Shown here in pieces: positions 23,967 to 33,404 of a stretch of DNA of 42,215 bases; position 1 is the first letter of the stretch, and each line of letters starts with the position of its first letter. The stretch lies in the NCBI GenBank assembly GCA_015231265.1, contig JADGBX010000009.1, forward strand, positions 1 to 42,215, given 5' to 3'. A program made the position numbers and the translations under genes. The notes below the pieces were generated by a model that had not been told where the DNA came from, did no database searches, and saw only the letters and a program-made list of their open reading frames with translations. Source of the DNA: Magnetococcales bacterium. GTDB taxonomy: Bacteria; Pseudomonadota; Magnetococcia; Magnetococcales; JADGBX01.

Positions 23967-24878
23967 TCATTGCTGGCCAACAGGTGCAAAACGCTTTTTG
24001 ATCACAGGAACAGCTAACCCCAAGTGTGACACTTCAGCGCTTATGGCTTTTGCCTCTTTGTGGGTGTCGAATGGTCCGATGATCACTTTGCGAACGGGAA
24101 GATCGGTTGCAACTTTAACGATTCGTACGGGCGTGATCTCAAGTTTTTTTGCAAGTTCGAGATCCTGAATCGCATAACCTAGCATGTACGACTTATTGAG
24201 AGAGATGATGTACCCTTCCCAGGTCTCTTCTGCTTCAACGTCCATTCCATTGGCTTTAAGCCGAACCTCTGCCTGCTTAGCCTGTTCAAGTGAAGCAAAA
24301 GGACCGGCTTGCACATTATTAACCTGGATGGTCTCCGTGGTGCTCTCAAGGATTGGGGTGAATCCATTCTCCTTGAGGCGCTTCATTAACGAGTCAGCAC
24401 CCATTTCCAGAACGAAGCTCCCAGCTTGGACGACATAACGGGGAGAGTCATAGGCAGTCTGGGGAGTTGACGATTCGAGAACGGGTGGAGGGCGCTGTTC
24501 AGGAGCGGCTTGAATGGCTGTTTGAGCCGTGTCAACAGGGTGTGCTGCCGGGGCTTTCGGTTGTGGTGCTGTTTGCAGTTTGGCAGGTGGTGTTGTCTGC
24601 TCAGATTGAGATGGGGATGCTAACACCATCTTTGATGGCGGGGAGGCCGGTTTTGCAGGTTGGTGAGGGGTGCTGGTTGAAAGGGCAGCCTCAAGCCATT
24701 CCGGCTGTTCCGGAAGCGCCATGATCTTTCCGGGCATTTCCGGCCCGGTCCAGAGTGCTCCGGGACCACTGCTCGACCCACTGACGAATAGCAGAATGTT
24801 GGCCGCAAGAAGGACGACAACCGCTATCCAGGGTAGAAGTGAGAGAACGATGGGAGGCAGTGGAATCCGTAAAGCCAC
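23967..24878 (-). CDS. Inner-membrane protein with two SPOR domains
   Basis: This 303-residue protein has a short N-terminus, one transmembrane helix at about 10-33, a Pro/Ala/Gln-rich periplasmic linker to about 140, and two SPOR-like repeats. The first begins RYVVQAGSFVLEMGADSLM and contains VQAGPFASLEQA. The second contains KVIIGPFDTHKEA. SPOR domains bind denuded septal peptidoglycan, so localisation at the division site is expected. The start is GTG, preceded by AAAGGG at good spacing. It is last in the minus-strand run before the tRNA. It is a FtsN- or DedD-like arrangement, but no specific orthologue is claimed. Confidence 0.75.
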   Translation of the reverse strand: MALRIPLPPIVLSLLPWIAVVVLLAANILLFVSGSSSGPGALWTGPEMPGKIMALPEQPEWLEAALSTSTPHQPAKPASPPSKMVLASPSQSEQTTPPAKLQTAPQPKAPAAHPVDTAQTAIQAAPEQRPPPVLESSTPQTAYDSPRYVVQAGSFVLEMGADSLMKRLKENGFTPILESTTETIQVNNVQAGPFASLEQAKQAEVRLKANGMDVEAEETWEGYIISLNKSYMLGYAIQDLELAKKLEITPVRIVKVATDLPVRKVIIGPFDTHKEAKAISAEVSHLGLAVPVIKKRFAPVGQQ

Positions 24879-24949
24879 GCGACGCCCTTTCTAAATAATA
24901 GTAAGAAAAAACAGTTCAGTGTATGCGATTACTCCAATCAGACGGTGAA

Positions 24950-25720
24950 TCATGTCTGATTGCGTTCATAAAGAAGCCTTAAACCATCAAGAGTGAGAAA
25001 CTCCTCAATCCGGTCGATTTTCTGCGTCTCCTTGGTGATGAGCCGCGCAAGGCCTCCGGTTGCAATCACCTGAATACCAGGAAGCTCAGACTCTTCTGAT
25101 ATTCTGTCGATCAGACTGTCCACCATACCGACGTAGCCCCAATAGAGTCCAGACTGCATTGAGGTGACGGTATCACGACCGATGACGCTTTTTGGTTCTG
25201 CCAGCTCAACACGTGGGAGTTTAGCAGTCTTCTCAAACAGAGCATCCAGCGCCAGTCCAGGCCCCGGGGCAATCGCTCCCCCTAGATAATCGCCGTTATC
25301 GGCAACGAGATCAAAGGTTGTTGCCGTACCGAAGTCAACGACGATGGCGGCACTCTTGACACACTCGAAAGCAGCAACAGCGTTGACGATCCTGTCTGCG
25401 CCGACCTCTTTGGGATTGTCATATCGAATAGACATCCCGGTTTTGATGCCGGGACCGACAATCAGAGGCGTAATGGTCATATAGCGCCGCAAGGTTCTGA
25501 TCAATGCCGATTGAATCGGTGGCACGACGCTGCCGATGATGACACCTTGAACCTGTCCAAGATCAAGACCGGACAACCGAAAGAGGTTAACGATCAGAAT
25601 GCCGTATTCATCACCCGTTCGTTCAACCCGTGTGGCAATCCGCCAATGCCTGACCAGACGGGGACCTTCGTAGACACCGAGAACGATGTTGGTATTGCCG
25701 ACATCAATCACAAGTAACAT
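24950..25720 (-). CDS. coaX: Type III pantothenate kinase
   Basis: This 256-residue enzyme phosphorylates pantothenate, the first step of coenzyme A synthesis, with the actin-like ATPase fold of CoaX. The N-terminal phosphate motif is [22 protein letters not shown] carries the catalytic Asp109, and [11 protein letters not shown] and [16 protein letters not shown] complete the type III signature. The gene starts 18 bases after birA ends. birA-coaX adjacency is common in bacteria and supports both calls. Confidence 0.93.
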
Positions 25721-25738
25721 GGAGTACTCAATTCATCA

Positions 25739-26554
25739 TCACTCCAGAGGCGTAACATCACCAGCAAGGATACGCTCTCGGGATCCATCCGTACACTCAA
25801 CCACCAGGAAACCGTCCTGATCAAGATCATTGAAGCACGCTTCCCGATCTCCATGCCTGCTGGAGAGTTTGACACGGCTTCCCACCGCAGGTCCATGCTT
25901 CAGCCACGCTTCCCGAATGGGGCTGACCCCCTCCTGCAACAGTGAACCGTACCACAGTTCGAATCGCTTGAGTACCGCTGCCAAAATATCTCCCCTGGCA
26001 ACTTCGACCCCTCGTTGATGACGCAGAGAGGTGAGCTGTTCCGACAGCGGTTTCGGGAACGCCTCCGGTAGAGCATTGATGTTGATTCCCACACCGATAA
26101 TCACAGCGGAAACATGGCTCCCCTGGAGGGACATTTCGCTGAGGATGCCACAGATCTTTTTGCCATGGATCAGAAGGTCATTGGGCCACTTCAGACGGAT
26201 ATCTTTGAGTTTGTGATCGTGGAGCGCTTCCAGTACGGCGACACCTGTCATTAGCGTAATAACCGGTACCTGTTGCGGCTGAAGCTTCGGACGCAGAATG
26301 AGAGAAAATGTGAGGTTGGAGCCAGCCGGAGCCTCCCATCGGCGCTGCATGCGCCCACGTCCCTGGGTTTGCCGGTCAGCAACGAAGAGCGTTCCTTCGG
26401 AGGCACCGTCACGGGCCGCTTCCATCGCCAGGGTATTGGTGGAAGGTGTTGTTTCGAGAAAGTGATAGTGCTCTGGCTGAAACAGTTTTCCCGTCAAAAG
26501 AGGGGTAAACCGTTCCGGCAAGAGAGAGAGATCCGTGAGGGTGGTGTCAGCCAT
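25739..26554 (-). CDS. birA: Biotin-[acetyl-CoA-carboxylase] ligase, catalytic type
   Basis: This 271-residue enzyme activates biotin as biotinyl-AMP and attaches it to the biotin carboxyl carrier protein. It shows TPSTNTLAMEAA, the nucleotide loop QGRGRMQRRWEAPAGSN and KWPNDLLIHGKKICGIL, followed by the small C-terminal domain. It lacks the N-terminal helix-turn-helix of E. coli BirA, so it should not repress a biotin operon. No clear ribosome site precedes the ATG. It lies 48 bases after nadC and 18 bases before coaX in the same transcriptional run. Confidence 0.93.
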   Translation of the reverse strand: MADTTLTDLSLLPERFTPLLTGKLFQPEHYHFLETTPSTNTLAMEAARDGASEGTLFVADRQTQGRGRMQRRWEAPAGSNLTFSLILRPKLQPQQVPVITLMTGVAVLEALHDHKLKDIRLKWPNDLLIHGKKICGILSEMSLQGSHVSAVIIGVGININALPEAFPKPLSEQLTSLRHQRGVEVARGDILAAVLKRFELWYGSLLQEGVSPIREAWLKHGPAVGSRVKLSSRHGDREACFNDLDQDGFLVVECTDGSRERILAGDVTPLE

Positions 26555-26602
26555 TTAAGAAAACAACATGTAAGCAACGGAAATGATTCATGCCGTGTCG
26601 CT

Positions 26603-27550
26603 TCAATCAATATCCGGGCCGGGTGGCAGGGAGAGGTGTTCGTGAAACGCCTCATCCCAGGCGTGTTGGCTTTCGGACTCCTCGCCTTCGAAGGGGCTGC
26701 GCTCCTTATAGTCCACCAACAGGGAGATGTCACAACTGCCCGCACTGTGGGTAATCGCTCCGACGGAGATCATGTTGATGCCTGTTTCTGCAATGGCACG
26801 TACTGTGTCGAGCGTCACATTGCCGCTGGCTTCAAGCAGGGCTTTGCCATCAACAAGAGCAACCGCTTCCCGCATCGCTTCCAAGTCCATGTTATCAAGC
26901 AGCAGGACGTGGGCCCCGGCATCCAGAGCGTCACGGACGTTTGTCAGGGTTTCGCACTCCACTTCAATACGGTGGAGATGGGATGTGGCGGCGTGGGCAC
27001 GTCGAACAGCCTGCTTCACCCCTCCTGCCAGGGTGATATGATTCTCTTTGATCAGAAAACCATCATCCAGTCCCATACGATGATTGACACCTCCACCGAC
27101 ACGCACTGCGTATTTCTGTAACCAGCGCATACCTGGTGTGGTTTTTCGCGTATCGGCGATTCGGACGCCGGTTCCCTGGACCTGATCGACGAATCGACGG
27201 GTCAGTGTTGCGACACCAGAGAGGTTCTGCATCAAGTTGAGGGCTAACCGCTCACCTGCCATCACCGCACGGGCAGGACCACGGATATCACAGATGGAGT
27301 TGCCGGGAAGCGCACCGCTGCCATCAGAGACTTCAGGGAGAAGCCGGACGCGGGAGTCGATGCGCCGAAACACTTCCGCTACGACTGGAAGTCCGCAGAC
27401 GATGAGATCCTGCTTGGCGACAAAAGTGGCTTCAGCTTCGATTCCTGCTGGAATCAACGCATTGCTCGTGACATCTCCACGACCGATGTCCTCTTCCAAA
27501 CCCAAGTCGATGATTCTGCTCCATGGCGTCATATCTCGATTCTCTCTCAT
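26603..27550 (-). CDS. nadC: Nicotinate-nucleotide pyrophosphorylase (quinolinate phosphoribosyltransferase)
   Basis: This protein of about 310 residues converts quinolinate and PRPP to nicotinate mononucleotide in de novo NAD synthesis. Recognisable segments are DLGLEEDIGRGDVTSNALIP, ERLALNLMQNLSGVAT, the PRPP/quinolinate region DTRKTTPGMRWLQKYAVRVGG, KENHI and LLDNMD. A C-terminal tail of about 30 residues (YKERSPFEGEESESQ onward) extends past the usual end. The ATG at 27532 (Met7) would match family starts better than 27550; both have weak ribosome sites. nadA and nadB are not in the window. Confidence 0.93.
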   Translation of the reverse strand: MRENRDMTPWSRIIDLGLEEDIGRGDVTSNALIPAGIEAEATFVAKQDLIVCGLPVVAEVFRRIDSRVRLLPEVSDGSGALPGNSICDIRGPARAVMAGERLALNLMQNLSGVATLTRRFVDQVQGTGVRIADTRKTTPGMRWLQKYAVRVGGGVNHRMGLDDGFLIKENHITLAGGVKQAVRRAHAATSHLHRIEVECETLTNVRDALDAGAHVLLLDNMDLEAMREAVALVDGKALLEASGNVTLDTVRAIAETGINMISVGAITHSAGSCDISLLVDYKERSPFEGEESESQHAWDEAFHEHLSLPPGPDID

Positions 27551-27595
27551 GCAGTCGCTAGTCTGTTGCCCATCGTCACGTACGGATAAGGATGG

Positions 27596-29665
27596 TCAGA
27601 GATTTTGATCTTCTTTGATCCGTTCGATCTCATTGAGAATCGCTTTTTCGATGAATTCCGGAAGAAGAGCATCAATCTTCTCCAAGACCAGTTCATTGAT
27701 GATCTCATCCACGCGTTCGCCGAACTCGGCCCGCACTGTTTCGGCATCCATAACTGGTGCACTTGAAGTGTCGTCAGAAGAGAGGCTCTCTTCAGCCACT
27801 TCACCTTCCGATTGCTCTTCAGTTAGTTCGGACTCTTCCTTGATCTCCTCAGCCCCATCGATCTCTGATTCTTCTTCAACAGGTTCAGAAGCCTCATCTC
27901 CGGTAGGTTGTTCCTCAGATTCCTGAGCACTCTCTTCCAAACTGTCGTCAGTATCGGTGAGTTCCTCAGATTCCGGAACATCACTCACTGAATCATCGTC
28001 ACCGGGCAGTTCCTGATCCAAAGGTTCCTCATCCAAAGGTTCCTCATCGACAGGTTCAGAGGTGGCCTCTTCGGCATCGGCTGGAGCTTCTTCAATGCTG
28101 TCACTCTCCACTGGCTCCTGAGGTGCATCTTCTTCAGCTGATGCCGTAACAGCGTCGTCAGAGTCTGATGAGAGATCTTCCGTCTCCTGAGACGCATCCT
28201 CTTCAGCCGAATCGGGAGCAGTATCATCGGAGCCTGAAGAGAGCGCATCATCCGGGCGTTCACTTTCGCTCTCATCAGCTTCTTCGGCTGCTGTCTCTGA
28301 TGCCTCGTCATCGTCATCCGACGCATCTTCCACTACCCCAACTTCTTCTTCACGCTCTGTTTCTGGAGTTTCTTCCTCGGAAGTGTCGTCATCCTCTAGC
28401 GGTTCAGACTCTTGAGGAGGCTCATCTGAAGTGTCTTCAGGCGTGTTGTCATCAGCAAGGTCAGGTTCGGCGGTTGTTTCTTCAGACGCTGTCGCTTCTT
28501 CCTCGCTCTCTTCTCCAAGAGGCTCTTCTTCAGAAGAGGGTGTTTCCTCTCCATCTTCAGTCGATCCGCTTTCAGGAATCTCTTTTTCTGTTGCAAGGTC
28601 GTCAGCTTCGGAAGATTCATCACTTTCCGGTGTTTCAGGAGTATCTACTTTCTGCTCATCCGGCTCTGAATCATCCTCAAGCTCTTCAGGACTTACCTCA
28701 CTCTCTGCTGCATGCTGGACTTCATAGCCGGAGAGATCCAAAGGCTCTCCTTCCTCTTCATCACCATCAAGCTCTCCAGCCGCTTCTTTCGGAGAATCGA
28801 GTTCTGCCGGAGTGTCATCTTCTTGTGATAGAGCCTCTTCCTCTTCAACTGTATCTTCGGGCTCCAGATCAGGATCCATGACTTCGTCAACGGCGCCATC
28901 GTCTTGCATCACTTCATCCAAAGCGGCATCCACTTCCGTCTCATCGGGAAGAGGTGTCTCGCCACTTTCATCAACATCCGGAACCTGAGCTTCCGTGTCA
29001 TCGGCTGCCAGGATCTCCTTGACCGGAGCATCAACCAGATGGTTGAGATCTTCATCGACAAGGCCGTCGGCAACCCGTTGTTTCGTGTCACGCACATCAA
29101 CGGCTTCGATGCTGGCCAGCTCTTCCTGAATGGGAAGCTCCGCGCTCTTCTCAAGCGTGGATTCGTCAGCCAGATTCTCTTCATCGTCGGAAGCTGAATG
29201 TGGGTCTGAGTCTATTGAGGTGTCGTCATCTGCAGGTTGGGAAGCACGTTCCTCTTCTGCGTTGATCTCTGCTTCATCGGGGACATCAACATCCATTGGC
29301 TGACCATCGACAGTGACGGTTGCCTCATCTACGACGTCGTTTTCACCGCTTCCGGTAACGTGTACGACGTGGTTTTGTCCTTCACCATCGTCTTTCCCCT
29401 TACCGCCCATGACTTGATTCAAGGAAGCGAGAATCTCTTCTGTCGAGAGGGTGTCATCGGTTGCGTCAGGAGCCGATGCCTCATCCTGATTCCCATCGCT
29501 CATGGTGGCCCCCATCTGTTTCTGAATGTCCCCGTCCATCTCCGATGCCAGTTCTGCCATGCTGTCCGTCATGGAGACTTCAAGGGAGTTGTTGCCCTTG
29601 GAACCACCTTTGGCAAGCGAAGATCTTCTCTTTTTGTTTGATGATTTCGATCGCTTTCTGCCCAT
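27596..29665 (-). CDS. Very acidic PopZ-like (DUF2497-like) protein with giant disordered linker
   Basis: This 689-residue protein has a basic N-terminal tip (RKRSKSSNKKRR), a short helix STEEILASLNQVM at 74-86, an enormous Asp/Glu/Ser-rich region at about 100-635 with almost no aromatic or basic residues, and a predicted C-terminal helical domain at 640-689. Caulobacter PopZ, from memory, begins with the same EEILAS helix and ends with a helix pattern LP-x2-VE-x7-V-x-RI. The end here reads DALLPEFIEKAILNEIERI and fits it. PopZ self-assembles at cell poles and anchors chromosome partition proteins. The linker here is several times the length of that in PopZ. GAGGTG precedes the ATG, 38 bases after the bcp gene. 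The homology is inferred. Confidence 0.6.
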   Translation of the reverse strand: MGRKRSKSSNKKRRSSLAKGGSKGNNSLEVSMTDSMAELASEMDGDIQKQMGATMSDGNQDEASAPDATDDTLSTEEILASLNQVMGGKGKDDGEGQNHVVHVTGSGENDVVDEATVTVDGQPMDVDVPDEAEINAEEERASQPADDDTSIDSDPHSASDDEENLADESTLEKSAELPIQEELASIEAVDVRDTKQRVADGLVDEDLNHLVDAPVKEILAADDTEAQVPDVDESGETPLPDETEVDAALDEVMQDDGAVDEVMDPDLEPEDTVEEEEALSQEDDTPAELDSPKEAAGELDGDEEEGEPLDLSGYEVQHAAESEVSPEELEDDSEPDEQKVDTPETPESDESSEADDLATEKEIPESGSTEDGEETPSSEEEPLGEESEEEATASEETTAEPDLADDNTPEDTSDEPPQESEPLEDDDTSEEETPETEREEEVGVVEDASDDDDEASETAAEEADESESERPDDALSSGSDDTAPDSAEEDASQETEDLSSDSDDAVTASAEEDAPQEPVESDSIEEAPADAEEATSEPVDEEPLDEEPLDQELPGDDDSVSDVPESEELTDTDDSLEESAQESEEQPTGDEASEPVEEESEIDGAEEIKEESELTEEQSEGEVAEESLSSDDTSSAPVMDAETVRAEFGERVDEIINELVLEKIDALLPEFIEKAILNEIERIKEDQNL
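28016..28045 (-). repeat. 15-bp perfect tandem repeat inside the acidic-protein gene
   Basis: ATCCAAAGGTTCCTC occurs twice in direct succession (28016-28030 and 28031-28045), with a degenerate third copy next to it. On the coding strand it encodes repeated DEEPL. It indicates growth of the acidic linker by slippage or short duplications. Confidence 0.85.
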
Positions 29666-29703
29666 GGTTCACCTCGTAGACATCGTCTGCAACGTCGTCT
29701 CTA

Positions 29704-30180
29704 TCACTCACCGAGAAGGGAGAACGCTTCGTCACGCACTTTGGCGACATGCTCCTTAACCCGGACTTTGGCGTAGCTCTTTTTAATGATGCCTTCATGA
29801 TCGACGATAAATGTCGAACGCACGATCCCCATATAGGTGCGTCCGTAGTTCTTCTTCTCCTGCCAGACACCGAACGCCTCACACAGCGCCCCTTCCTTGT
29901 CACTGAGCAGAGTGAAAGTGAGTTCGTGCTTGGTGCAGAAGTTGGTATGGGATTTCACCGAGTCCTTCGAGATTCCGATGATGGTCAAGCCTTCATCGGA
30001 GAATGACTGCAACATCTCCTGAAAATCCTTCGCTTCGGTGGTACAACCGGGGGTGTTGTCTTTGGGATAGAAATAGAAGACAGCCCCTTTCTCACCGATC
30101 AACTCTTTCAAGCTGCGCAGGTCGCCGTTCTGGTCTTCACAGCTCAGGTCGGGAATTGATGTACCTTCAGCCAGCAACAT
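29704..30180 (-). CDS. bcp: Thioredoxin-dependent peroxiredoxin, Bcp/PrxQ type
   Basis: This 158-residue peroxiredoxin reduces peroxides through a peroxidatic cysteine in PKDNTPGCTTEA (Cys46 from this start). The resolving cysteine five residues later, found in E. coli Bcp, is Lys here. Cys82 in SVKSHTNFCTKHEL sits 36 residues downstream, as in the beta-type PrxQ of Xylella, so a different disulfide is expected. I chose ATG 30180 because GGAG lies about 8 bases upstream. The ATG two codons earlier (30186) would sit too close to it. It heads or lies within the run leading to the PopZ-like gene and nadC. Confidence 0.9.
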   Translation of the reverse strand: MLLAEGTSIPDLSCEDQNGDLRSLKELIGEKGAVFYFYPKDNTPGCTTEAKDFQEMLQSFSDEGLTIIGISKDSVKSHTNFCTKHELTFTLLSDKEGALCEAFGVWQEKKNYGRTYMGIVRSTFIVDHEGIIKKSYAKVRVKEHVAKVRDEAFSLLGE

Positions 30181-30266
30181 GATCATTCTCCGTACGGATT
30201 CATCCAGGTGAGCACGCCTTCATAACTCGTAAGGCAAGAGGGTGACGCGTTTTATTCTCGATTCAA

Positions 30267-31427
30267 CTACCATCCGAGTTGCAGTCTGACAGAGTCGAGA
30301 AGTGTTCTGAAGAACCCCCCTTCCGCAACCTCTGCTCCGGCGACTACTGGACGGCTCAAGAGCTCTTCCTTACCCAGTTTGACCACCAGTGTCCCCACTT
30401 TCTGTCCATCGTGAATGGGGGCGAGAATCGGATCATCATAGAGCAGTCCCACTTCCAGGGTATCACGCTCTTTACGAGGAACCGTAACCAACAGTGGATC
30501 GCGAATCACACCCTCGACGTGATCGTTATCCCCTTTCCAGATTCTCAGACGGCGCACCAAGGAGTTGGCTTCGAACAGACGCACCGTTTCATAGGTTCGA
30601 TTTCCGAACCGCAACAGTCGCAACGCCTCCTCTTCACGTGTCTTGATGCGGTCGGCTCCCATGATGACGGCAGCCAGGCGTTGGCCGTCGTTTTCATTGG
30701 TCGCGATGAGGCAGTAACCGGCGGCGCGGGTGTGGCCTGTTTTCAGTCCGGTGATGGAAGGGTCACGCCAGAGAAGGCGATTGCGGTTGTATTGGCGGAT
30801 GCCATTGAAGGTGTACTGCTTCTCTTTGGCATAATGGGCGTACTGTGGAAAGTGCCGAACGATGGAGCTGGCCAGAATGAACATGTCCCGAGCCGTGGAG
30901 AAGTGGCCCTCCGTGGGCATGCCCGAGGAGTTCATGAAATTGGAGTTATGCAGTCCCAGATCCTTGGCTTTCTGATTCATCAGATCAGCAAAACCCTTCT
31001 CCGAGCCACCAATGTGTTCGGCGACGACCATGCAGGCGTCATTTCCGCTCTGAACGGCTATGCCACGAATGAGATCCTCAACCCGCACTTTGTCTCCAAC
31101 ATGGACAAAAGTCTTGGAGCCCCCCATTCTCCACGCTTTTTCACTCACCGGCAGGCGTTGATCCAGGCTCAGATTACCATTGGCCAACGCTTCATAGACC
31201 AGATAGAGGGTCATCACCTTGGTCAGTGAAGCCGGAGGTACCCGGACGTCGGCTTCCTGAGAGAAGAGGATTGTGCCTGAATCAACATCTCCGAGCACGG
31301 CTGCCCGGCTTTTGACCCTGAACGGCAGGCCCTCCGAAAGCGCCTCTGATACCGGTATCAGCATCAGAATAAGAGCCATAACCACCACAATGCCGTGGAA
31401 CATGCGAAATTCTGTTCGTAGCCTCAT
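30267..31427 (-). CDS. D-alanyl-D-alanine carboxypeptidase, PBP5/6 type
   Basis: This serine-type carboxypeptidase has about 386 residues and trims the terminal D-Ala of peptidoglycan pentapeptides in the periplasm. The signal peptide covers about 1-31. The penicillin-binding motifs are SLTK (67-70), SGN (127-129) and KTG (229-231), followed by the beta-rich C-terminal domain that usually carries a membrane-anchoring amphipathic helix (FFRTLLDSVRLQLGW). The frame is open from TTG 31436, but ATG 31427 gives a conventional signal peptide. It follows rlpA by 67 bases in a wall-remodelling cluster. DacA and DacC cannot be told apart here. Confidence 0.92.
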   Translation of the reverse strand: MRLRTEFRMFHGIVVVMALILMLIPVSEALSEGLPFRVKSRAAVLGDVDSGTILFSQEADVRVPPASLTKVMTLYLVYEALANGNLSLDQRLPVSEKAWRMGGSKTFVHVGDKVRVEDLIRGIAVQSGNDACMVVAEHIGGSEKGFADLMNQKAKDLGLHNSNFMNSSGMPTEGHFSTARDMFILASSIVRHFPQYAHYAKEKQYTFNGIRQYNRNRLLWRDPSITGLKTGHTRAAGYCLIATNENDGQRLAAVIMGADRIKTREEEALRLLRFGNRTYETVRLFEANSLVRRLRIWKGDNDHVEGVIRDPLLVTVPRKERDTLEVGLLYDDPILAPIHDGQKVGTLVVKLGKEELLSRPVVAGAEVAEGGFFRTLLDSVRLQLGW

Positions 31428-31494
31428 GAAACCCAATCCAATCTTCTATTTTTCAACACGATGATGATCGTTGCAGATGATCTCTCACGGGAGA

Positions 31495-32391
31495 TCACTT
31501 CGTTACCACCTGCCGTCCGCCGAAACCGAGATTTGCCAACGATTCCAGAATAGTGCCAGCCTCCTGGGTCGATGAAAACGGTCCCAACCGCACACGATAG
31601 AAAGGTGTTCCATCCACATCGACTTGCTGAATATGGGATGGTCCCACCGATTGCAGTTTGAGTGCAAGTCTTCGAGCGTTGGTTAATCGGCTGAAGGCTC
31701 CGACCTGAACAAACAGACCACTGTCAGTGTCAGGTGCGCGGGCGGCTGCGACCGGGGCTGCTCTCTTGGTCTGTATGGTGCTGTCCGGAGCACCATCCTT
31801 CATTGTGACCGGTTTGACCGGTCCCATGGAAGGATCATAACGAATTACCCGATAATTTTTTGGTATGGCGGGGTCGTTCTTCGGCAACGCCTCAACCCGG
31901 ACTCTGGCTGTACCCTTTTTGAGATAATCGAGCCGCTTGGCAGCTTCATAAGAGAGGTCGATCAAACGATCCTTGACGAAGGGGCCCCTGTCATTGACAC
32001 GGATGACCAGTGTTCGACCATTCTCCAGATTTGTGACACGCACCCATGTGGGTAGAGGAAGAACGGTGTGCGCAGCCGATGGCTTCCGCATGTCATACAG
32101 CTCGCCGTTGGCCGTGGGGCGGCCATGAAACGCCTTGCCGTACCAGGAGGCGATCCCTTCCGCGCGGTAACCTTTTGCGCTTAGAAGCGGTGTATAGGTG
32201 ATGCCAAACGCCTTGTAGGGGCGTTGTGTCGAGCGTCGCTCCTGGGTGGCGACCACGTTTTCCGATGCGTTCTCCTCTGACTGGAGAGGGTTCCATCCCG
32301 TGCAGCCGCTCAGGGTAAACATGGTGAAAACCAGCAGCCAAAGAGCACGCTGATCGGTGGAAAGGTGAGCCATCCGTGGGTTTATCGTCAT
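31495..32391 (-). CDS. rlpA: RlpA-like lipoprotein septal-ring lytic transglycosylase
   Basis: This 298-residue protein is an outer-membrane-type lipoprotein with lipobox LSGC (Cys30). A double-psi beta-barrel follows (GIASWYGKAFHGRPTANGE, AAHTVLPLPTWVRVTNL, VIRVNDRGPF) and then a C-terminal SPOR domain from about 222 (GLFVQVGAFSRLTNARRLA). RlpA of Pseudomonas cleaves naked glycan strands at the septum. The Asp and His of that active site are present here. The start codon overlaps the mltB stop (32388-32391), so the two hydrolases are translationally coupled. Confidence 0.92.
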   Translation of the reverse strand: MTINPRMAHLSTDQRALWLLVFTMFTLSGCTGWNPLQSEENASENVVATQERRSTQRPYKAFGITYTPLLSAKGYRAEGIASWYGKAFHGRPTANGELYDMRKPSAAHTVLPLPTWVRVTNLENGRTLVIRVNDRGPFVKDRLIDLSYEAAKRLDYLKKGTARVRVEALPKNDPAIPKNYRVIRYDPSMGPVKPVTMKDGAPDSTIQTKRAAPVAAARAPDTDSGLFVQVGAFSRLTNARRLALKLQSVGPSHIQQVDVDGTPFYRVRLGPFSSTQEAGTILESLANLGFGGRQVVTK

Positions 32392-33404
32392 GGTGTTGTC
32401 GTGTCGATCAAGCTGTCGGAGAACTCACGCACCACCATGGCAAAACGTCGTGAATTGTTCCAACGGGTGATGACGTAGAAATTGTTAAAGACCATATGAT
32501 AAACCGGACCACGCTTCCCTTCCAGCATGATCAGTGCAGCTTTCTGTTCGGGGGCAGGTAGAGGCTCTCCCTGGCTGACTCCGACACCCTTGCGAGCCCA
32601 CGATTTCCAGGTTTTCATCTTTCTTAGTGAAGAGGAAACCATGTCCCTGTTCACTGACGATCCATCAACGGAAGTCGCAAAGCGCCCTCCTCGAACCCAG
32701 CCATGTCCATGCAGATAGTTGGCAATGGAGGCCAGAACATCGGGCGTGGAGCCGAAGACATCTCTGGAGCCGTCACCATTATGGTCCACAGCATAGCGGC
32801 GCATGGTGTCCGGAATCATCTGTACCTGACCCATGGCACCGGCATAGGAGCCCTTCATGGTTGAAGGATCCCACCCCTGCTCTCGGCACAAGAGCAGAAA
32901 GGCGCGAAACTGTTCACGAAAAAAAGTCGCGCGTCGCGGATAGTCCGTTGCGAGCGTGAAGAGTGTTCGAAGCACCGGGTGTTTGCCCATATAGCTGCCG
33001 AAACGGCTCTCAATACCCCACAGTGCAACGACAACGTTACCCGGTACACCGTAGCGCTGCTCAATCTCCAAGAGCAGGTCAGCGTGCTGTCTCAGTAACC
33101 GCCTCCCCTTTGCAACGGCTTTGCGGGTGAGAAACAGCGTTCGATAGTGGTGATAGGGTTTCGCCTCCGCTTGGCGGTTCATCGCCTGGATAACCCGTGT
33201 ATAGGGTTGCAGCGGCGACAGAAGGGTGTTGAGCCAAGCCCTATCGAAGCGATCCTTAGTCACCAAATCCATGAGCCAAGGGTGTTTGTCAACGATATCA
33301 CCCTGGGCACACACTGATCCTGGAACCGACACCAGAATGAGGCCGGCGCCAAGTCCGGCCATGCAGGTTCTTCGTGAAATCTCAGTCTCTTCCGGCGCGG
33401 TCAC
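32388..33404 (-). CDS. Lytic murein transglycosylase, MltB family, with Tat-like signal
   Basis: This 338-residue enzyme cleaves the MurNAc-GlcNAc bond to yield anhydro-MurNAc ends. The catalytic Glu132 lies in ALWGIESRFGS. GSYAGAMGQVQMIPDTMRRY and DVLASIANYLHGHGW are MltB/SLT_2 signatures. The N-terminus reads EISRRTCMAGLGAGL followed by a hydrophobic stretch and VCAQG, which resembles a twin-arginine signal (Arg11-Arg12) rather than the usual lipoprotein signal. It is divergent from the ABC exporter genes, with 266 bases between them. It heads the minus-strand run that continues through rlpA. Confidence 0.88.
   Translation of the reverse strand: MTAPEETEISRRTCMAGLGAGLILVSVPGSVCAQGDIVDKHPWLMDLVTKDRFDRAWLNTLLSPLQPYTRVIQAMNRQAEAKPYHHYRTLFLTRKAVAKGRRLLRQHADLLLEIEQRYGVPGNVVVALWGIESRFGSYMGKHPVLRTLFTLATDYPRRATFFREQFRAFLLLCREQGWDPSTMKGSYAGAMGQVQMIPDTMRRYAVDHNGDGSRDVFGSTPDVLASIANYLHGHGWVRGGRFATSVDGSSVNRDMVSSSLRKMKTWKSWARKGVGVSQGEPLPAPEQKAALIMLEGKRGPVYHMVFNNFYVITRWNNSRRFAMVVREFSDSLIDTTTP

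Follow-up and report, generated by a model that had tools for sequence, protein, structure and literature searches.

Does the PopZ family of polar organizers extend beyond the α-Proteobacteria, and what would a member with a far longer and more acidic linker look like? This question is raised by an open reading frame in a 42,215-nucleotide stretch of a Magnetococcales genome (hereafter the window), the two ends of which had been predicted, from the DNA sequence alone, to resemble those of PopZ. The same prediction took the host to be an alphaproteobacterium or a deep relative of one, which fits its placement in the small sister class Magnetococcia, a class of the Pseudomonadota in the NCBI listing.

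Organization of the window gene

The ORF reading of the window gives a gene of 689 codons at 27596-29665 on the minus strand, with an ATG start and an RBS-like GAGGTG just 5' of it. Together with the same-locus orthologues found across the class, these features identify it as a popZ-like gene of Magnetococcia type. The coordinates agree exactly with the original prediction, as do the length of the protein, its basic N-terminal tip and its acidic linker of about 540 residues. The tip (residues 1-24; 29594-29665, on the minus strand like all parts of this gene) is defined by the K/R count of the first 30 residues, which contain 10 K/R versus 1 D/E, and a K/R-rich start is also present in most Magnetococcia orthologues. 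A putative client-binding helix motif, H1 (STEEILASLNQVM, residues 74-86; 29408-29446), was assigned by profile and alignment comparison and is followed by a disordered, acidic linker (residues 87-640; 27746-29407). This linker, measured at 537-548 amino acids, consists of 41% D/E, 7% P and 2% K/R, and contains tandem repeats of minor extent (28009-28057 and 28115-28243) as well as a conserved motif, EPLDLSGYEVQ (residues 307-317; 28715-28747), recognized by motif counts against shuffled sequences.

The protein closes with a candidate oligomerization helix (residues 641-688; 27602-27745), assigned by homology to the DUF2497/PopZ C-terminus and by AlphaFold. This C-terminus reads LPEFIEKAILNEIERI, its last residues being LPEFIEKAILNEIERIKEDQNL, and follows the pattern LP-x2-IE-x5-EIERI; the LP-x2-IE and EIERI elements are those originally described, while the spacing between them is five residues rather than six. 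AlphaFold predicts a single straight helix, rather than a helix-turn-helix, over residues 641-688, with a pLDDT of about 96 over the core; being built from one sequence, the model has no power to reveal oligomerization or a kink at the LP. On the downstream side nadC (26603-27550, minus strand) directly follows popZ here, with valS lying between the two in relatives, while the upstream neighbor, common to some relatives, is a bcp-type peroxiredoxin gene (29704-30186, minus strand).

The PopZ relationship emerges from orthologues, profiles and locus

Taken by itself, the sequence of the window protein leaves the matter undecided, since it falls below the DUF2497 cut-off. No Pfam family was found in the protein by hmmscan, and in a permissive search of the whole genome its C-terminus was the best place for DUF2497 at only 12.3 bits (E 0.8) versus the PF10691 (DUF2497) gathering cut-off of 27 bits, so that the profile search originally proposed as a check gave no significant match for the window protein itself. 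Against its last 60 residues, an HMM of the alphaproteobacterial PopZ C-terminus scored 17.6 bits, with none of 3,000 shuffles exceeding 10.5, and the corresponding N-terminal HMM gave an E-value of 0.46 for the window protein alone. An HMM of the joined ends of the Magnetococcia proteins, from which the window protein was excluded, reached 35.1 bits (3.8e-9; best of 3,000 shuffles, 10.1). Solved structures searched with the C-terminal profile yielded no relevant match.

The last 72 residues of the window protein retrieve homologues throughout the class, which was sampled as 48 genomes, all in one order. The N-terminal helix of these orthologues is SMEEILASLEEILDE and their end is LPELLEKIIREEVERV; the H1 core, STEEILASL in the window and SMEEILASL in the orthologues, is of the EEILASI type looked for in a client-binding helix. 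One syntenic orthologue, in genome G024, lies above the DUF2497 cut-off at 30.6-31.9 bits. When 3,979 ORFs were scanned with the HMM of the alphaproteobacterial PopZ N-terminus, Magnetococcia proteins ranked next after the alphaproteobacterial PopZs (E 1e-4 to 1e-3). Profile-profile comparison of the alphaproteobacterial and Magnetococcia proteins put the match of the N-terminal helix at 97.4%, that of the C-terminus at 97.9% and that of the joined ends at 98.8% (E 4e-17), the last score being inflated because the N-terminal segments were picked by motif, a bias of which the scan of 3,979 ORFs is free. The Magnetococcia ends HMM, built without the window, in turn matched alphaproteobacterial PopZs at about 5e-13 to 2e-8. 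Homology of the oligomerization domain to that of alphaproteobacterial PopZ was likewise found by profile comparison, at a level never reached by shuffles. A linker motif of the [VILP][LIV][DE]L[ST] type, a pattern picked after inspection of the data, occurs in all 17 Magnetococcia linkers (shuffled mean, 2.4) and in 28 of the 56 linkers from α-Proteobacteria (shuffled mean, 1.6).

The locus points in the same direction. Its order in the class is mltB-rlpA-dacC-(bcp)-popZ-valS-nadC-birA-coaX plus a SPOR-domain gene, bcp being present only sometimes, so that popZ sits between dacC/bcp and valS-nadC throughout, with adjacency to valS kept outside the window genome. In Caulobacter and Agrobacterium valS likewise lies just downstream of popZ (PMC5686542), and it follows popZ in the alphaproteobacterial genome G059. 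The interval that separates popZ from nadC in the window (27551-27595) contains no valS. The divergent ValS of this genome, of 837-840 amino acids, is encoded on another contig (G000:C5:175-2688, L131) and scores 654 bits, above the family cut-off, versus more than 1,100 bits for the full-length ValS of relatives; the broken popZ-valS synteny probably reflects replacement by a foreign ValS, with some reservation because the assembly is 80% complete. The cell-wall genes that flank popZ in the class (mltB, rlpA, dacC and the SPOR-domain gene; 23967-33404 in the window) form a conserved septal or polar peptidoglycan neighborhood.

Because of the DUF2497 match of the orthologue, the locus and the profile match of the ends, the window gene is, as judged from sequence, PopZ-related and of a divergent Magnetococcia type. 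The predicted homology of both ends is borne out by the same lines, including the popZ-valS gene order of the other class members, and at the level of sequence and locus orthology to PopZ is established. With the PopZ of Caulobacter and Agrobacterium (PF10691) the Magnetococcia type shares the order of H1, acidic linker and C-terminal oligomerization helix, the EEILASL core, an LP-x-hh-E-x3-h-x2-EhxRh end, the DL[ST] linker motif and, in the class, the valS-side locus. It differs in its longer and more acidic linker, its basic tip, and the loss of Arg18/Arg19 and of the WLD-NLP turn.

Long acidic linkers are a trait of the class

Linkers of the Magnetococcia proteins (n=14) range from 234 to 930 amino acids (median 558) with 19-56% D/E (median 40%), versus 65-511 amino acids (median 142) and a median of 19% D/E in alphaproteobacterial PopZs (n=56); over family medians, the two groups differ in both length (p 0.0002) and charge (p 0.002). 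A long acidic linker, with about 4 times the length and twice the acidity known from other PopZs, is by these sequence comparisons a class-wide trait. The original prediction of an extreme natural variant is right about the linker, but what is surprising is a property of the whole class rather than of this one gene. The short-linker norm against which it was set also needs amending, as linkers of more than 100 amino acids are common in α-Proteobacteria and one reaches about 500. The latter, in the PopZ of genome G115 (L113:4292-6055), has just 12% D/E, a solution to charge opposite to that of the Magnetococcia.

A 2022 study by Lasker and colleagues described PopZ as confined to α-Proteobacteria, reported that longer natural PopZ linkers have a lower charge fraction, and found that doubling the Caulobacter linker to 156 amino acids gave over-fluid condensates, abolished polar location and impaired fitness (PMC9512792). 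The Magnetococcia class departs from all three of these expectations. The engineered Caulobacter variant IDR-156 resembles the Magnetococcia proteins in that its acidic linker is lengthened, yet it already impairs fitness at 156 amino acids, while natural Magnetococcia linkers extend to 930 (PMC9512792). In our alphaproteobacterial set, length and charge are anticorrelated over sequences (rho -0.55), but no such relation is seen among the 16 family medians (rho 0.18), and our argument therefore rests solely on the difference between the classes.

Several individual genes deserve mention. In the popZ of the presumed Magnetococcus marinus MC-1 genome (L066:3044-4671), a 24-base tandem repeat in about 67 copies makes up most of the linker and encodes units of the EEVAEEEA type, which suggests that the linker may have grown by repeat expansion. 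In the alphaproteobacterial genome G068, popZ appears as two overlapping ORFs in different frames that carry the N-terminal and C-terminal halves (L121:3787-4388), a split that we ascribe to a frameshift or a sequencing error. Proteins of one GTDB family (f39; L115-L119) start with EDVLSSIRRLVSE, continue into a long linker and end in LGERITRNVRKLVRREI; they are not located beside valS and, from their sequences, seem to form another branch of PopZ-like proteins that has diverged very far.

A changed candidate client helix and a lost turn

All 56 alphaproteobacterial proteins have R/K at position 18 of H1 and 53 of the 56 have it at position 19, versus none of 14 Magnetococcia proteins at either position. 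R18 and R19 of Caulobacter PopZ are replaced by N and Q in the window protein and by acidic or polar residues in the class. In Caulobacter, R19E is one of the changes in the KEP mutant, which has lost its binding to ParA/ParB and further clients (PMC5182065); given this, the client interface of a Magnetococcia H1 without the Arg pair should differ. The WLD-x-NLP turn between H3 and H4 is not found in the window protein, which has EKIDALLP instead and aligns there with a gap of 4 residues. The MipZ Pfam model carries little information as a marker of clients, since it also matches ParA-like proteins in 14 of 14 controls and its best match in the class is partial (53 bits).

A second protein with the oligomerization helix

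The class has a second protein with the PopZ oligomerization helix, encoded beside proS in several relatives. In many genomes these proS-linked proteins consist of a doubled helix without a linker, in others the helix is fused to CheX (PF13690), and single-helix versions occur too; in the window genome a CheX ORF adjoins a 72-amino-acid single-helix ORF on contig C68. One doubled protein lies above the DUF2497 cut-off (34.1 bits, in two stretches). When the class was searched with a model derived from the doubled proteins, 47 of 48 genomes contained a match and 29 of them at least 2, popZ copies included. In genomes beyond the class, the matches of this model at E 0.001 coincide with popZ itself. 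Loci of the second protein are G000:C68:3-758 (L053), L049, L063, L069, L071, L126, L055-L058, L073, L129, L246 and L247. The literature searched contained no description of such proS-linked double-OD or CheX-OD proteins.

In Caulobacter, the effect of lengthening the linker is countered by additional oligomerization helices (PMC9512792), and on this basis a second protein may add valency; by analogy, it may compensate in trans for the long linker of Magnetococcia PopZ. These elements can be assembled into a two-component polar condensate, in which a long, self-repelling PopZ would be balanced by a proS-locus protein adding both valency and chemotaxis, and in which the charge-changed H1 would imply a re-tuned set of clients. 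We offer this model tentatively and regard it as rather doubtful.

Proposed mechanism and alternatives

Taken jointly, the evidence makes it very probable that the window gene is a Magnetococcia popZ orthologue acting as a condensate scaffold with a client-capturing H1 and an acidic spacer. Condensation, polar location and client capture are carried over from studied PopZs and would be expected by analogy. In such a scaffold the C-terminal helix would self-associate to form a condensate, and the EEILASL helix near the N-terminus would capture client proteins. The acidic linker of roughly 550 residues would act as a strongly self-repelling spacer that sets the looseness, fluidity and exclusion of the condensate. 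Possible binding partners of the basic tip are nucleic acid, membrane and the acidic linkers on adjacent molecules.

Several features count against a PopZ reading: the window protein scores below the DUF2497 cut-off and lacks the Arg pair and the WLD-NLP turn, its C-terminus is predicted to be a straight helix rather than a helix-turn-helix, and valS is not adjacent in the window genome. The low complexity of the linker and the weak scores of the window protein itself (DUF2497 E 0.8, N-terminal E 0.46) could suggest a generic acidic low-complexity protein in which both ends are alike by chance. We give this reading hardly any credence, as 3,000 shuffles never approached the real scores and both ends as well as the locus are conserved over the class; chance resemblance is refuted by the profile comparison and the shuffles. 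The oligomerization helix also occurs in the proS-linked proteins, whose DUF2497 matches equal or surpass that of the window protein; this would fit membership of the latter in a class-specific oligomerization-helix family (double-helix or CheX-fused, proS locus), its likeness to PopZ being limited to the C-terminal helix. However, those proteins have no H1, no linker and no DL[ST] motif, whereas the window gene has all three, at the popZ locus, and the two kinds co-occur in genomes, including that of the window, making this explanation very unlikely.

A different possibility is a PopZ orthologue without polar condensate function that now works in soluble form, either as an acidic chaperone or by buffering charge. 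This idea arises because so long and acidic a linker should raise the saturation concentration; a doubled linker already makes Caulobacter condensates too fluid and costs them their polarity (PMC9512792), and the linkers of Magnetococcia are much longer still, as well as far more acidic. On the other hand, the oligomerization helix, the H1 core and the linker motif are retained across the class, and valency could be restored by a second oligomerization protein; we consider such a loss of function improbable and favor a condensate scaffold.

Our literature search found no paper on a polar organizer in Magnetococcia, and the protein described here is a candidate for that role in a group that includes magnetotactic cocci. 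Magnetococcia PopZs offer natural material for studying how extreme spacers are tolerated, or put to use, in condensate scaffolds, and the pair of proteins in this class allows one to ask whether valency from a second protein compensates for a long linker.
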